The position numbers were made by a program, and so were the translations under genes. The notes beneath the pieces are model-generated. The model was not told the DNA's origin. It worked only from the letters and a program-made list of their open reading frames with translations, and ran no database searches. 35,922 nt of DNA from Deltaproteobacteria bacterium (GTDB lineage Bacteria; Desulfobacterota; Anaeroferrophillalia; Anaeroferrophillales; Tharpellaceae): the NCBI GenBank assembly GCA_016938065.1, contig JAFGVI010000112.1:1-35922 (forward strand). Reading direction: 5' to 3'. Below, one piece after another: positions 14,095-26,602 of the stretch. Within the stretch, counting starts at the first letter, position 1; each line of letters begins with the position of its first letter.

Positions 14095-14475
14095 CTACTT
14101 TGGGGAATAACGTTTGCTCAGAACCTCCAGGATCGCTTTTTTCAATTCGTCGAGGCTGGCCGCTTTGACGACATAGGCATCAGAGGCCCAGGTTGTGAAA
14201 TCCTGTTTATAGTCGCCGTAGGCGGAACAGAGAATAACCGGAATATTTTTGTCGATCTCCTTAATTTTGATGAGGGTCTCGACGCCGGACATGCCCGGCA
14301 TCTTGATGTCCATGACGATCAGATCCGGATTGGTTGCGGGCAGTATCTGCAATGCTTCCTCACCACTGGCCGCGGCCGCGACGATATAGCCCTCGTCTTC
14401 AAGCTCCTCTTTATAAAGCCAGCGAATGTTCTCTTCGTCGTCGACTACCATGATTGTATATTGCTGGTTGCTCAT
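14095..14475 (-). CDS. Receiver-only response regulator
   Basis: A 126-residue CheY-like receiver domain with no output domain. The acidic pair D12-D13, the phosphoacceptor D56 in VMDIKMPGMSG, the conserved S after LCSAYGD and the K in VVKAASLDELK are in place. It should be phosphorylated by the adjacent histidine kinase and act by binding another protein. It starts within the kinase stop codon (ATGA overlap), so the two are translationally coupled and are most likely cognate partners. Confidence 0.93.
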   Translation of the reverse strand: MSNQQYTIMVVDDEENIRWLYKEELEDEGYIVAAAASGEEALQILPATNPDLIVMDIKMPGMSGVETLIKIKEIDKNIPVILCSAYGDYKQDFTTWASDAYVVKAASLDELKKAILEVLSKRYSPK

Positions 14476-16907
14476 ATCGATACCTCGCTGTTGGGTTGTC
14501 CTGCTGGTGTGGTTGTTGGTTTATGTCTGAAAGGCAATGAGATTGAAACTGTAACCCCTTTACCTTCACGATTATGAATGCGGATGTCACCCTGATGATT
14601 AAGAATGATGCGATGGCAGATCGGCAGCCCCAGGCCGGTGCCGTCGTGTTTGGTGGTGAAGAACGGGTTGAAGATGTCATGAATAAACTGTTCCTGAATA
14701 CCTTTGCCATTATCTTCGATTTCGATCAGGGCCCGTTCCTGTTTTCTCTGCAGGTCGCAGTAGTAAGAGGTTCGTACCGAAATGCAGTGTTTCGTGCCGC
14801 TGGGTTTATTGGTCATGGCCTGCATGCTGTTGTTAAAGAGATTGATAAAGACCTGTTTTAACTGGTTGCCGTCACATTCAACCTCTTTCAGCTCGGCGCA
14901 GAGGCGGAGCTGAAGCTTGATTTTTAACCTCTTTAGTTCACGGGCAAAGAGGGCGGCAGTTTCATTAAGCAGCAGATTGAGATTATTGGGTTCGAATTTA
15001 TTGTTTTCCGGTCGCGAAAATGAGAGCACATTGTTGACTATCTCTTCCAGCCTTTCAATCTCTTTGGTGATGATATGGCTGTAAGCTTTTTCCCGGCTCT
15101 GTTCGGGAATTCTCTTGTGCAGGCGACGGGCAAAGCCGCCGATTGAGACCAGCGGATTTTTTATTTCATGGGCAATACTGGAAGCCATCTCTCCTAAAGC
15201 CATCAGTTTTTCGCTTTGTGCAAGGCGCAGCTGAGCGCTGTTCAGGCTGGCCAGTGAACTCTGCAGTCGTTGATAGAGTCGGGCGTTGTCGAGGGCCAGG
15301 GCCGCGGCATCGGTAAAAAGTGTAATATAGGCAAGATCATCGAGGGTGATCTGGTCGGCATTGGCCAGGATCAGGCCCTGGAGTTGATCCTGACTCATAA
15401 TCGGGATGACGGTGAGATTGCGGCCGGGCAGCAGATCTTTCAAATGGGCATGGTTTATAGTGACAAAATCAGCCGGGATGGTGGTCGGTTTCTTCCCGAT
15501 GACGGCCTGCTGAAAACGGCTGGGAGCCTGCTTGAGACTGGGTACTTTCAGATTTTTGAGTTTTTCTTCGATCTCCTGCGAAATTCTGCTGCTGGCCTCA
15601 AGCAGATGGTTGGTCATGGTGCTGAGCTGATTGTCCGGTTGCAGTTCCAGATTGAGCAAAGAGCCGTCGGGGGCGCTGGCGTAGTAGAGTCCCTGCCAGG
15701 AATCATCTTTTTCCTGCAGCTCAAGGTAGAGGGCCGGCGAGGAGGTGAAGCCTTCCCGGCTGACCAGGGCACCGAGGGTCAGGCGAATAATTTTTTCCGG
15801 GGTGTCGGCGGCCAGCAGCGCATTTTTCATCTGGTGTGAGAGGGTTAACTGCTGGGTTCTCAGGAGGGAGGCCTGGTTGATCATTGAGAGTTGATTCTGG
15901 GCCCGGGTTCTCTCCAGGGTGGCGGCAAGATGATCCGCGAGGATTTCAAGAAGTTCCAGATCCTCTTTGGCCAAGGGCAGAAGTTCCTGGCTGCCGGGTT
16001 GGTCGGCCAGGAAAAATTCCAGGCAGCCGACAAGGCGGCCCTGGCTGCTTAGCGGCAGAATGATATGCGCGCAGAACTGCTGGAAAAAATTCTGATAGAT
16101 TTCGGTCGCCGCCGGCAGGTTCTGTCTGTCAATGATCTGCGGCGGGGAGCTTGCTTTAATGCGGGCCGCCTGGTAACGGCTGACCGGAAGGATCGATGTG
16201 TAATGTTCGTCGCTGCGAAAACCCTGACTGATGGTTTTGTTCTGGTCCGGTTCGTTTTCAAAAATATGCAGAATCGCCGCTGATTCGGAAAAAAAAGCGA
16301 GAGCTGACTGCGGAAGCCGGGCGAAAACACTCTGGACATCGGCGCTGGCGTTGAGTTGAGCCCCGATCTGATGGAGAAATTTCAAACGTCTGACCCTTTG
16401 CTGATCCTGATTTTTCAGGATCGAGCTGCGCAGGGCCAGGGTCAGCTGCCGGCAGACGACCAGAAGAAAGCGGATGGTTTCATTGTCGACGCTGAACGGG
16501 TTTGAGCCGAGCAGAACCATGGTGCCGTAAGCCTGATTTTCGTCGGCCAGAGGCAGGCTCCAGCCGTGGGGTTGCTCCTGTCTGAAAAGATCATCCGAGC
16601 CCGAAGACTCAGGTTTGAGAGGGGACGGCAGGAGGGTGGTCAGAGGCCGGCACAGCCGATCTTCGGGCTGGGGCAGTTTGTAGCTGCCGGGCGGCGTCGG
16701 CAATTGCCGGCCGCCGGCGGCATCGGCGGCCAGCCGCAGGGTCAGTTTTCGACCGCGGTGCTGCAACAGGTAGAAGGCGACGGTCGGAGCCAGGTTCATG
16801 CGGCAGAGAAAATTGGCGGCCTGGGTCAGACGGTCGTTGATCTGTGCGGTGGAGCTGCTGATCTCGACGATCCTGGTCAGGATATCATATTTTTGCTGAC
16901 TGTCCAT
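14472..16907 (-). CDS. Soluble histidine kinase with three GAF-like domains
   Basis: An 811-residue kinase without membrane segments. Three GAF-like regions (about 5-155, 170-335 and 360-545) lead through a helical linker to a HisKA domain with H580 in MASSIAHEIKNPL. A HATPase_c domain follows with the N box (INLFNNSMQAM), G1 (IEDNGKGI), F box (NPFFTTK) and G2 (GTGLGL). GAF domains bind small ligands such as cyclic nucleotides, haem or iron, but nothing here shows which. It is 52 bases downstream of glgA and could share the galT-glgA transcript. It is followed by a receiver-only partner. There is no clear ribosome-binding site before the ATG at 16907. Confidence 0.92.
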   Translation of the reverse strand: MDSQQKYDILTRIVEISSSTAQINDRLTQAANFLCRMNLAPTVAFYLLQHRGRKLTLRLAADAAGGRQLPTPPGSYKLPQPEDRLCRPLTTLLPSPLKPESSGSDDLFRQEQPHGWSLPLADENQAYGTMVLLGSNPFSVDNETIRFLLVVCRQLTLALRSSILKNQDQQRVRRLKFLHQIGAQLNASADVQSVFARLPQSALAFFSESAAILHIFENEPDQNKTISQGFRSDEHYTSILPVSRYQAARIKASSPPQIIDRQNLPAATEIYQNFFQQFCAHIILPLSSQGRLVGCLEFFLADQPGSQELLPLAKEDLELLEILADHLAATLERTRAQNQLSMINQASLLRTQQLTLSHQMKNALLAADTPEKIIRLTLGALVSREGFTSSPALYLELQEKDDSWQGLYYASAPDGSLLNLELQPDNQLSTMTNHLLEASSRISQEIEEKLKNLKVPSLKQAPSRFQQAVIGKKPTTIPADFVTINHAHLKDLLPGRNLTVIPIMSQDQLQGLILANADQITLDDLAYITLFTDAAALALDNARLYQRLQSSLASLNSAQLRLAQSEKLMALGEMASSIAHEIKNPLVSIGGFARRLHKRIPEQSREKAYSHIITKEIERLEEIVNNVLSFSRPENNKFEPNNLNLLLNETAALFARELKRLKIKLQLRLCAELKEVECDGNQLKQVFINLFNNSMQAMTNKPSGTKHCISVRTSYYCDLQRKQERALIEIEDNGKGIQEQFIHDIFNPFFTTKHDGTGLGLPICHRIILNHQGDIRIHNREGKGVTVSISLPFRHKPTTTPAGQPNSEVSI

Positions 16908-24277: not shown

Positions 24278-24604
24278 TTGGAAAGAGATCAGGTGTGTTG
24301 TCGGGTTGCCGAGGTTCTGAAAGTTCTGGGTCATCCCGTGCGTCTGCAGATTGTGCAGACCCTGCTGACGCAGGAGAGCTGCGTAAAGAACTTGTGGAGT
24401 TGTTTGGAACTTTCCCAGGCCACCGTCTCGCAGCACCTCTCCGTGCTTAAAGGGAAGGGGATTGTTGATTCCGCCCGTGAAGGTGTAGCGATGCGTTACT
24501 GGGTATCTGACGAGATCAGTAAATTGCTGGTCGGCAGCCTGATGGATCATTTCGGTATGGACTGTCGTGAAGCTGCCGCAGATTGTTGTAAAGAGGTGGG
24601 TTAA
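24278..24604 (+). CDS. ArsR/SmtB-family repressor, cysteine-rich
   Basis: A 108-residue winged-helix regulator. The recognition helix LSQATVSQHLSVLKGKGIV and the wing AREGVAMRYWVS are typical. ArsR proteins leave DNA on binding metals or other ligands. The CVCDLC site of E. coli ArsR is here CVKNLW: only the first Cys (C35) remains, with C42 nearby. Further cysteines occur at 7-8 and at 96, 103 and 104, seven in all, so the sensing site probably differs. Translation starts at TTG 24278, seven bases after GGAGG. The fmdB gene begins one base after its stop. Confidence 0.9.
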   Translation: MERDQVCCRVAEVLKVLGHPVRLQIVQTLLTQESCVKNLWSCLELSQATVSQHLSVLKGKGIVDSAREGVAMRYWVSDEISKLLVGSLMDHFGMDCREAAADCCKEVG

Positions 24605-24605
24605 G

Positions 24606-24803
24606 ATGCCGTTGTACGAGTATGAATGTCCTCAGTGCGGGACGCGGGTTGAGGTGTTGCAGAAAACCGGCGAGGACGGCAGCTTGCTGAAATGTCGGCA
24701 TTGCGGGGCGGAGGGGTTGAACCGGTTGCTCTCCGGTTGTGTGGTCAAGACCGGAGGATCGGGGAAAACCGCCTGCTCCCCGGGGGCGGGCGGCTTTACT
24801 TGA
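24606..24803 (+). CDS. Small FmdB-family zinc-ribbon protein
   Basis: A 65-residue protein starting MPLYEYECPQCG, the FmdB hallmark, with a zinc ribbon formed by C8, C11, C30 and C33. Two more cysteines (C45 and one in TACSPG) lie in a glycine-rich tail. The function of FmdB-type proteins is not established; the name comes from a putative regulator near a formamidase gene. The ATG follows GAGGTGGG. It is the second gene of the unit started by the ArsR repressor, which suggests it is controlled by the same signal. A related 95-residue protein is at 29230. Confidence 0.88.
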   Translation: MPLYEYECPQCGTRVEVLQKTGEDGSLLKCRHCGAEGLNRLLSGCVVKTGGSGKTACSPGAGGFT

Positions 24804-24811
24804 AACTGAAA

Positions 24812-24845
24812 CGCCCGGCAGTTGCCGGGCGGGCTTGTTTTTGTT
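24812..24845 (+). terminator. Terminator of the arsR-fmdB unit
   Basis: CGCCCGGC (24812-24819) pairs with GCCGGGCG (24824-24831) around a four-base loop, followed by a T-rich run (TTGTTTTTGTT). It begins nine bases after the fmdB stop. Confidence 0.85.
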
Positions 24846-24922
24846 GCTGAAGTTCGAGCCGGGTTTGCTGGCCGGTAAAGTTCGCTGTCGGCCGTGAGGC
24901 CGCTCTTTCGCCCTGTTTTTCT

Positions 24923-25741
24923 TTACTTTTTCTGACTTGACTCCTCAAGATCGATAATCAGACTGCCGTTGACATAGGGCCGGGTTTTGTACTCAACCAG
25001 CTGTTCCATCTGTTTGATTATTTCAGCCATGCGCAGACATTGCTTCTGAATTGTCTGAAAGCGTTTGTTCAGCTGTATGTTGTTCGCAACATAGGCATCT
25101 TCATCAAGCAGTTCGATGTTGCCGATAATGGTGGTCAGTGGTTGGCGCAGCTCGTGGGCGACCGCTCCGGCGGTTTCAATCATGGCTGCTTTCTTTTCGC
25201 TCAAAATCAGCTGTTCCTGCACAAATTCCAACTCTTTATTTTTTTCATCAACCAGATTTTCCAGGCTGTCGGTATAATGCTGATCGGCGGCGATAAGGGT
25301 TTCGCTGAGACTTAAGTCTTCAAAAAAGATCAGGATGCGGGTTTTATGCTCCGGGCTTTCCTGAAGGACGCTTGCCTGCAGGGAGAGGTGCGGGTGATCC
25401 GTCTCACGGCCCGTCTGGTTTACCGAAAAAGGCATGCTGATGCTGTTTTTATCGCCCGTCAGTAAATTATCCCAGGCCTCTTTTAAATCGGTTTCCGTGG
25501 TCAGAAAGGTGAGTAGATTATGGCCGGCCAGAGGGTTCTGGCGCAGGAGAAAATGTGCCAGCTGGTTGGCAAACAGAATCGTTGCGACTTCATCACAGAC
25601 TACGATCCCGTAAGGAGCATGGCGCAGAATTGCCAGACAGAGGTTGCATTCAGGCTCATTGTTCGGCGTTAAACTTGATTTCATGGTTGGATTTTTGCTG
25701 GGAATAGGGTAATACTGTTTAATCATCTTTTTAGAATACAT
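24923..25741 (-). CDS. PAS-HisKA protein without an ATPase domain
   Basis: A 272-residue soluble protein. A PAS domain (about 35-145) is followed by a coiled coil (about 150-185) and a HisKA dimerisation helix pair with H196 in GAVAHELRQPLTTIIGN. After the second helix it ends with VEYKTRPYVNGSLIIDLEES. There is no N, G1, F or G2 box, and none is encoded in the 119 bases downstream in any frame I read, so this is not a simple frameshift. It may act as a phosphotransfer or dimerisation partner of another kinase. The start is uncertain: no ribosome site precedes 25741, and Met codons at residues 6 and 20 are alternatives. Confidence 0.82.
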   Translation of the reverse strand: MYSKKMIKQYYPIPSKNPTMKSSLTPNNEPECNLCLAILRHAPYGIVVCDEVATILFANQLAHFLLRQNPLAGHNLLTFLTTETDLKEAWDNLLTGDKNSISMPFSVNQTGRETDHPHLSLQASVLQESPEHKTRILIFFEDLSLSETLIAADQHYTDSLENLVDEKNKELEFVQEQLILSEKKAAMIETAGAVAHELRQPLTTIIGNIELLDEDAYVANNIQLNKRFQTIQKQCLRMAEIIKQMEQLVEYKTRPYVNGSLIIDLEESSQKK

Positions 25742-25807: not shown

Positions 25808-26602
25808 ATGGTGCAGGAGTCTGACAGGGAAGCCCGGATGCCGGTTGTTGAAGATGGCGGAGGGAAGATTTCGGGTTATTATATTGAAGAGGTCAGCATC
25901 TCGCTGGGTACCGGGGCCACCAAACGCAAAACTACGGGTGAAAATATCTTTCTGGCCGAGGAGTTGCCCTGTGGCAGAGTCAAGCTCAGTCTGCTCAACA
26001 TGGCCGGTCAGCCGACCACGATAGTCGAAGAGGTCGAGAAGGAGGAGTTTTTTCAGCGCTGTCGTCCGAAACCAGATTTTATTCCTCCGGACAAAACTGT
26101 AAAATTCGACCAGATCAAGGAAAAAGCCGACCGTCACGCCTCCCTGGGTAACCTGCATCTGCGGAAAAAAGAGTTTAACAGCGCCGAGTTTGAGTTTCAG
26201 AGTTCCCTGAAGCTTGATGAGGAACATGTGCGGGCCAACTACGGTATGGTCAAGCTGCACCTGGAGAAAGGTGAAGAGGAAAAGGCGAAAAAGGTTCTCA
26301 AAAAACTGACCAGTATTGAAGCTCTCTTTGAAGAAGATAATAAGCATATTTTTAATGAGTTCGGTATCGATCTGCGGCGTATGAAGATGTATGATCAGGC
26401 CCTGGACAGTTATCGTAAAGCCATGGAGATCAACGATAAGGATCCGATTTTGAAATTCAATATGGCCCGGGCGCTGATTGATAAAAAACTGTGGGCGGAA
26501 GCGCTGGAATGTCTCGAACAGGCCATCCTTCTCAAGCAAGAGTTTCCCGAGGCTGAGAAACTGGCCCGGCTGCTGCGGACCAAACTGGAGAAAATGGGCT
26601 AA
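25808..26602 (+). CDS. Tetratricopeptide-repeat protein
   Basis: A 264-residue soluble protein. Residues 1-95 form a segment I do not recognise (SGYYIEEVSISLGTGATKRK, then EELPCGRVKLSLLN and a charged stretch). From about 100 the sequence is helical repeats: LGNLHLRKKEFNSAEFEFQSSLKLDEEHVRANYG, a diverged repeat, then FGIDLRRMKMYDQALDSYRKAMEIN and FNMARALIDKKLWAEALECLEQAILL. These are TPR units, which carry protein-protein contacts. The ATG follows a strong AAGGAGGT. It is divergent from the PAS-HisKA gene, and the rluD gene follows five bases after its stop. Confidence 0.85.
   Translation: MVQESDREARMPVVEDGGGKISGYYIEEVSISLGTGATKRKTTGENIFLAEELPCGRVKLSLLNMAGQPTTIVEEVEKEEFFQRCRPKPDFIPPDKTVKFDQIKEKADRHASLGNLHLRKKEFNSAEFEFQSSLKLDEEHVRANYGMVKLHLEKGEEEKAKKVLKKLTSIEALFEEDNKHIFNEFGIDLRRMKMYDQALDSYRKAMEINDKDPILKFNMARALIDKKLWAEALECLEQAILLKQEFPEAEKLARLLRTKLEKMG

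Follow-up and report, generated by a model that had tools for sequence, protein, structure and literature searches.

A conserved family of DHp proteins ending in a hairpin tail instead of an ATPase domain, and a possible role in phosphate exchange

The gene, its product and its neighbors

The window, the whole 35,922-nucleotide stretch of DNA that was analyzed, carries at positions 24923-25741 of the minus strand a gene for a protein of 272 residues. The plus-strand reading of this interval is interrupted by many stops. The true start may be Met20, at position 25684, which would yield a protein of 253 residues. This start is favored because residues 1-32 are poorly conserved (37%) and were modeled by AlphaFold with low confidence, and because an ortholog (G006) carries a stop codon upstream of that Met.

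The AlphaFold model of the 272-residue protein had a mean pLDDT of 85.8 and contained a PAS fold over approximately residues 33-143 (25313-25645, minus strand). By sequence, the PAS domain was below threshold in Pfam (PAS_8, 14.4 bits). Using Foldseek, this part of the model matched solved PAS/LOV domains, and the whole-length model matched PAS/LOV-DHp kinases with FixL cores. A predicted signaling coiled coil (residues 144-189; 25175-25312, minus strand) leads into helix 1 of the DHp (HisKA) helical hairpin (residues 183-249; 24995-25195, minus strand), the model helices spanning residues 147-213 and 222-246. Pfam HisKA (PF00512) matched residues 190-248 at 48.2 bits, against a cut-off of 26.9. 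The predicted phospho-acceptor, His196 (codon 25154-25156, minus strand), lies within a standard H-box, AVAHELRQP, and the residue at H+4, the phosphatase position, is Gln200 (codon 25142-25144, minus strand).

Beyond the DHp, the model contained only a 23-residue hairpin tail, with no degenerate CA-like C-terminal domain. The conserved portion of this tail, EYKTRPYVNGSLIIDLEESS (residues 250-269; 24935-24994, minus strand), stands in place of the ATPase domain and is a predicted β-hairpin with strands at residues 253-255 and 261-263 (pLDDT about 92-95). Pfam searches of the protein matched neither HATPase_c nor the canonical HPt domain (PF01627), and a scan of the contig found no HATPase_c near the gene. 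The Pfam and AlphaFold results thus agree with an earlier note on this DNA, which had described a PAS domain, a coiled coil and an H-box histidine at residue 196 with no ATP-binding domain.

A TPR-protein gene (25808-26602, plus strand), kept as a neighbor across two families of the order, is divergent from the DHp-tail gene. The first ~95 residues of its product (SGYYIEEVSISLGTGATKRKTTGENIF...) had no Pfam family match. The earlier note had the two genes facing each other; in fact, their 5′ ends are adjacent, and the DHp-tail gene converges on the unit at its other side. This unit comprises genes for an ArsR-family regulator (24278-24604, plus strand) and a small FmdB-like CxxC protein (24606-24803, plus strand; ATG at 24606, TGA at 24803), both conserved neighbors. 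The FmdB-like gene is separated from the DHp-tail gene by 119 bases, the length given in the earlier note, which had also stated correctly that these bases do not encode the missing domain. Between these two convergent genes, at positions 24812-24846, a GC-rich inverted repeat runs into a T-rich stretch, an arrangement that is terminator-like by eye. Although the TPR, FmdB-like and ArsR neighbors are conserved, none of the three is a two-component protein; the earlier note had likewise found no explanation of the gene in the TPR gene or the ArsR unit.

The sole HATPase_c on the contig (14526-14873) belongs to a different protein, a full kinase encoded roughly 8 kb from the DHp-tail gene. This kinase (14472-16907, minus strand) is a complete soluble protein with a DHp-HATPase core and a long N-terminal sensor region; no evidence connected it with the DHp-tail gene. 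Over the whole window genome, HATPase_c was matched 74 times, a count that will include ATPases other than kinases.

Conservation of the locus and spread of the tail

A search of 59 relatives revealed orthologs in most genomes of the genus and, beyond the genus, elsewhere in its family and order. Their identity falls to 36-44%, and nearly all align to the last few residues. Gene order is constant, the TPR gene flanking one end and the FmdB-like and ArsR genes the opposite end. No ortholog continues into a HATPase_c domain at this locus, a continuation that, according to the earlier note, would indicate a truncated kinase. Pairwise identity was 74-75% in the coil, DHp and tail and 48% in the PAS domain, the least conserved domain; one ortholog (L015) has lost the PAS domain entirely and kept the coil, DHp and tail. 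The dN/dS ratio was mostly about 0.1-0.2 over the gene, a rough estimate as synonymous sites are near saturation, and was lowest over the DHp and tail for nearer relatives, at 0.035-0.07. By these ratios, the orthologs are under purifying selection. Together with the shared end and gene order, this upholds the earlier view that the gene is not the product of a recent frameshift.

The last 20 residues of the tail have the consensus Y-x-T-[KR]-x-Y-(V)-x-x-x-x-I-[IL]-D-[LI]-x-x-[AS]-S. A query comprising the DHp and tail was scanned over 84,980 species with the H-box forced, which makes His conservation circular in the resulting set. The best 80 loci were in Desulfobacterota, Myxococcota, Chloroflexota and Nitrospirota, and the tail was present in all of them. 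A second profile, A3, comprised only helix 2 and the tail (the last 44 residues), such that the phospho-His was not required. Profile A3 matched the window gene at 24935-25066 (E 2.4e-21) and the DHp-tail module in 73 of 247 genomes of the phylum, in 40 of 113 Myxococcota genomes (a single copy in each) and in 4 of 121 Chloroflexota genomes. Based on these profile matches, the protein is a member of a conserved family built around a coiled coil, a DHp and a hairpin tail, without a CA domain. The search for a shared C-terminal end that the earlier note had proposed thus found the same end in many genomes, as befits a family and not a remnant.

Profile A3 also revealed a second tail-family copy within the window's own genome (G000:C82, locus L165:1069-4073). 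It encodes a REC-DHp-tail protein; a gene for a membrane HAMP-GGDEF protein lies on one side, an overlapping gene for a single-domain REC follows it, and a chemoreceptor gene converges on these three genes.

Searches of Pfam and NCBIfam for a named family covering the DHp and tail passed only generic HisKA, the NCBIfam matches being far under cut-off. The tail had no confident match among solved structures. In a profile comparison (hhalign) with 55 full kinases from the same loci, the DHp regions aligned at 99% probability and the local match ended at Y-x-T; the tail may or may not derive from a former CA domain. When CA-less HisKA proteins with a conserved tail were sought in the open-access literature, only a P2CS class and individual cases such as RetS, ChpT and DivL came up. 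The same literature yielded no description of the tail-defined family, its spread or its kinase pairing, subscription papers being mostly outside that search. The components are known already, and the tail-defined family may have been described before.

Pfam analysis of 59 full-length members identified HisKA in all 59, PAS in 43, GAF in 33, REC in 20 and HATPase_c in 2. Among about 170 relatives, a HATPase domain never directly followed the tail. Across all loci, four tail proteins contained one (L090, L097, L173 and L175), and it belonged to a second, ordinary DHp downstream in the chain. Judged by this domain order, the CA-less module is naturally fused to a complete kinase in all four, which come from two separate clades. 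Fusions to receivers were of the type REC-(PAS/GAF)-DHp-tail or, in L024 and L101, REC-DHp-tail-REC-GGDEF. A further arrangement, in L229-L232, is DHp-tail-REC, with the H-box SHEINNPL (N at H+4) and a C-terminal receiver after the tail.

Partners, active-site residues and possible function

Kinase genes were frequent neighbors of the tail genes. A complete kinase gene was directly downstream on the same strand in 39 of 71 loci of one set (L026-L105) and in 22 of 38 loci of a tail-selected sample (22 of 36 Myxococcota, plus one fusion), counts that are not independent, as the pairs are mostly from a single clade, L048, L155 and L196 being examples from outside it. The start codon of the kinase was typically 4 bp inside the end of the tail gene. 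As a control, other genes in the same loci were followed by a kinase in 10 of 398 cases, as compared to 23 of 52 for tail genes under the same conservative gene calling. Locus L147, in a species that is sister to that of the window, has a single operon with genes for a hybrid kinase, a REC-DHp-tail protein and a lone REC. The partnership is inferred from such relatives because the window gene, like most members from Desulfobacterota, adjoins neither a kinase nor a REC gene (85 of 97; many flanks are short). Overall, profile matches and gene neighborhoods show a family with a fixed end, a putative phospho-His and, in other lineages, co-encoded or fused kinases and receivers. These pairings and fusions strengthen two roles that the earlier note had offered, a phospho-acceptor served by another kinase and a partner that modulates kinases.

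Residues were counted in sequences selected by the tail or the whole protein, for which the His was not required. In the first 97 sequences, the His was present in 96 and the H+1 acid in 89; 88 had Q at H+4, and the other nine had T, N or S. In a further 38, from Myxococcota and Chloroflexota, the His was present in all 38, the H+1 acid in 37, and H+4 was Q in 34 and N in 4. Combined, the His was retained in 134 of 135 sequences and an amide or hydroxyl residue at H+4 in all 135; the H+1 acid was lost in 9, being replaced by N, Q, R, K or A. The complete kinases in the same loci had the H+1 acid in 50 of 51 cases, and N, T or S at H+4 in 50 of 51. The near-invariance of the His weakens the third role in the earlier note, that of an ATPase-independent sensor alone. 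The sole member with a replaced His (L193; G055:C67) has Gln in its place (VAQELNQP) and is a possible pseudo-DHp. A subclade of six (L111, L156, L173, L175, L179 and L190) has T or S at H+4 (HELNTP/HELNSP), and it includes two proteins with a complete kinase fused on.

In CrdS, kinase activity depends on the H+1 acid and not on the H+4 residue, and for phosphatase activity the reverse is true; the His is only weakly needed for phosphatase activity, most of which the H371A variant retains (PMC3510030). Given these roles, the retention of the His in members that have lost the H+1 acid points to His-Asp exchange. Overall, the residue pattern fits chemistry on a receiver Asp, by exchange of its phosphate or by hydrolysis, and not autokinase chemistry.

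Based on the abovementioned analyses, the product of 24923-25741 is most likely a CA-less phosphotransferase under the control of its PAS domain, with a receiver domain as its partner in phosphate exchange, an assignment we hold with middling confidence. It is supported by the same tail end being kept across the genus, family and order with low dN/dS, by the full kinases that adjoin or are fused to the module, by the REC fusions and by the L147 operon. In this mechanism, the DHp would dimerize into the usual four-helix bundle and dock a REC domain, and phosphate would move between the REC Asp and H196, as in Spo0B and ChpT. The phosphate would originate from ATP via a separate complete kinase, encoded elsewhere in the genome in the case of the window gene, and then the REC. 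The PAS domain would tune the activity of the H196 module through the coiled coil, and the tail would cap the DHp where a CA domain would otherwise be. Q200 probably also allows dephosphorylation of the bound REC, and the signal could then set whether the protein serves as a relay or as a drain. Several findings weigh against this assignment: the window gene and most Desulfobacterota members are orphans, the kinase pairs fall largely in one clade, and the window protein, like most members, retains the H+1 acid. The nearly constant H+4 amide, moreover, is something that a pure phosphotransferase would not need.

The main rival, to which the constant amide or hydroxyl at H+4 points, is a dedicated transmitter phosphatase, in which the CA-less DHp would bind the REC-P of a partner kinase or regulator and hydrolyze it via Q200 with no phospho-His step, as in the second mechanism of RetS. 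An H+4 amide is sufficient for phosphatase activity in HisKA proteins, Gln serves in RapH (PMC3510030), and RetS, whose HATPase is degenerate, acts in this way on GacS via a HExxT motif (PMC5992135). Moreover, the kinase-specific H+1 acid is dispensable in nine members. The retention of the His, however, exceeds expectation if phosphatase activity alone mattered, considering the CrdS variant, an argument qualified by PleC, which shows that the His can matter in some enzymes. We regard this function as unlikely, at perhaps one chance among several.

Less probable still is a heterodimer in which the DHp pairs with that of a complete kinase and either is phosphorylated in trans by the CA domain of this kinase or blocks that domain, wiring the PAS input into the kinase. 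The translationally coupled kinase genes, the tandem fusions, the relatedness of the DHp to that of the neighboring kinases and the kinase-kinase control of RetS/GacS, for which three mechanisms are known, all speak for it. Nevertheless, the Gln at H+4, versus N, T or S in the neighboring kinases, indicates that the helix faces differ, and RECs fused on both sides favor REC docking.

PAS-driven dimers without chemistry exist, and one family member, L193, has Gln for His. A structural or ligand-binding dimer without phosphate chemistry, binding REC-P in the manner of DivL, is nonetheless very unlikely for the family given how consistently the His is retained. Finally, a decaying kinase remnant or frameshift, suggested by the missing CA domain, was rejected as barely conceivable: all orthologs share one end at a conserved locus that holds no intact version, dN/dS is low, the tail-only profile has matches in several phyla, and the model tail is ordered.

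More broadly, there is about an even chance that the CA-less hairpin-tail DHp proteins form an unnamed class of dedicated phosphate-exchange partners of complete kinases in several phyla, by which a kinase pathway would gain the sensing of a second protein with no need for another ATPase. Proteins that have HisKA but no ATPase domain are usually catalogued as incomplete kinases; among them is a large coherent set with a shared ordered tail, a near-invariant phospho-His, and kinase partners next door or in the same chain. HisKA-only kinase counts would then include a functionally different class. The role of these proteins is directly testable, and a profile is available for finding members.

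Comparison with known systems

The window protein shares the DHp and phospho-His of HisKA-type sensor histidine kinases, from which it differs in the missing HATPase_c/CA domain. P2CS files HisKA proteins without HATPase as 'Incomplete HK' (PMC2716373); this is a residual annotation class, not a family, and neither the tail nor the pairing is described there. FixL-type kinases (H-box HELNQPL) share the PAS, coil and DHp arrangement and the HELxQP motif, and are among the nearest solved sequences and folds: the family profile matched 4gcz with an E of 6.5e-11, and the top Foldseek match was at 3.8e-11. In contrast to the window protein, FixL goes on into a CA domain, and sequence similarity, which covers query positions 5-85 of 108, does not reach the tail.

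In DivL, a weak sequence match to the family profile, the His is replaced by Tyr. DivL is a pseudo-kinase with a DHp; it reads a receiver and has another kinase under its control (PMC9430884, PMC4211667), and its catalytic domain is retained, repurposed as an input (PMC4211667). RetS of Pseudomonas aeruginosa is a kinase-deficient DHp protein that can act on a kinase as transmitter phosphatase, as phosphate sink or by inhibiting autokinase activity (PMC5992135). It has in common with the window protein a phosphatase-type residue at H+4 (Q200 here); RetS contains a degenerate HATPase and two RECs, whereas the window protein has neither.

In ChpT and Spo0B, phosphate enters from a REC, and a dimeric DHp with a shuttling His has no autokinase activity (PMC3433190). 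The family described here is similar in that it combines a DHp and phospho-His with the absence of an active CA domain. ChpT, however, keeps a degenerate CA-like domain, and such a tail is not described in it; the window family has no CA domain, and its input domains are variable (PAS, GAF or REC).
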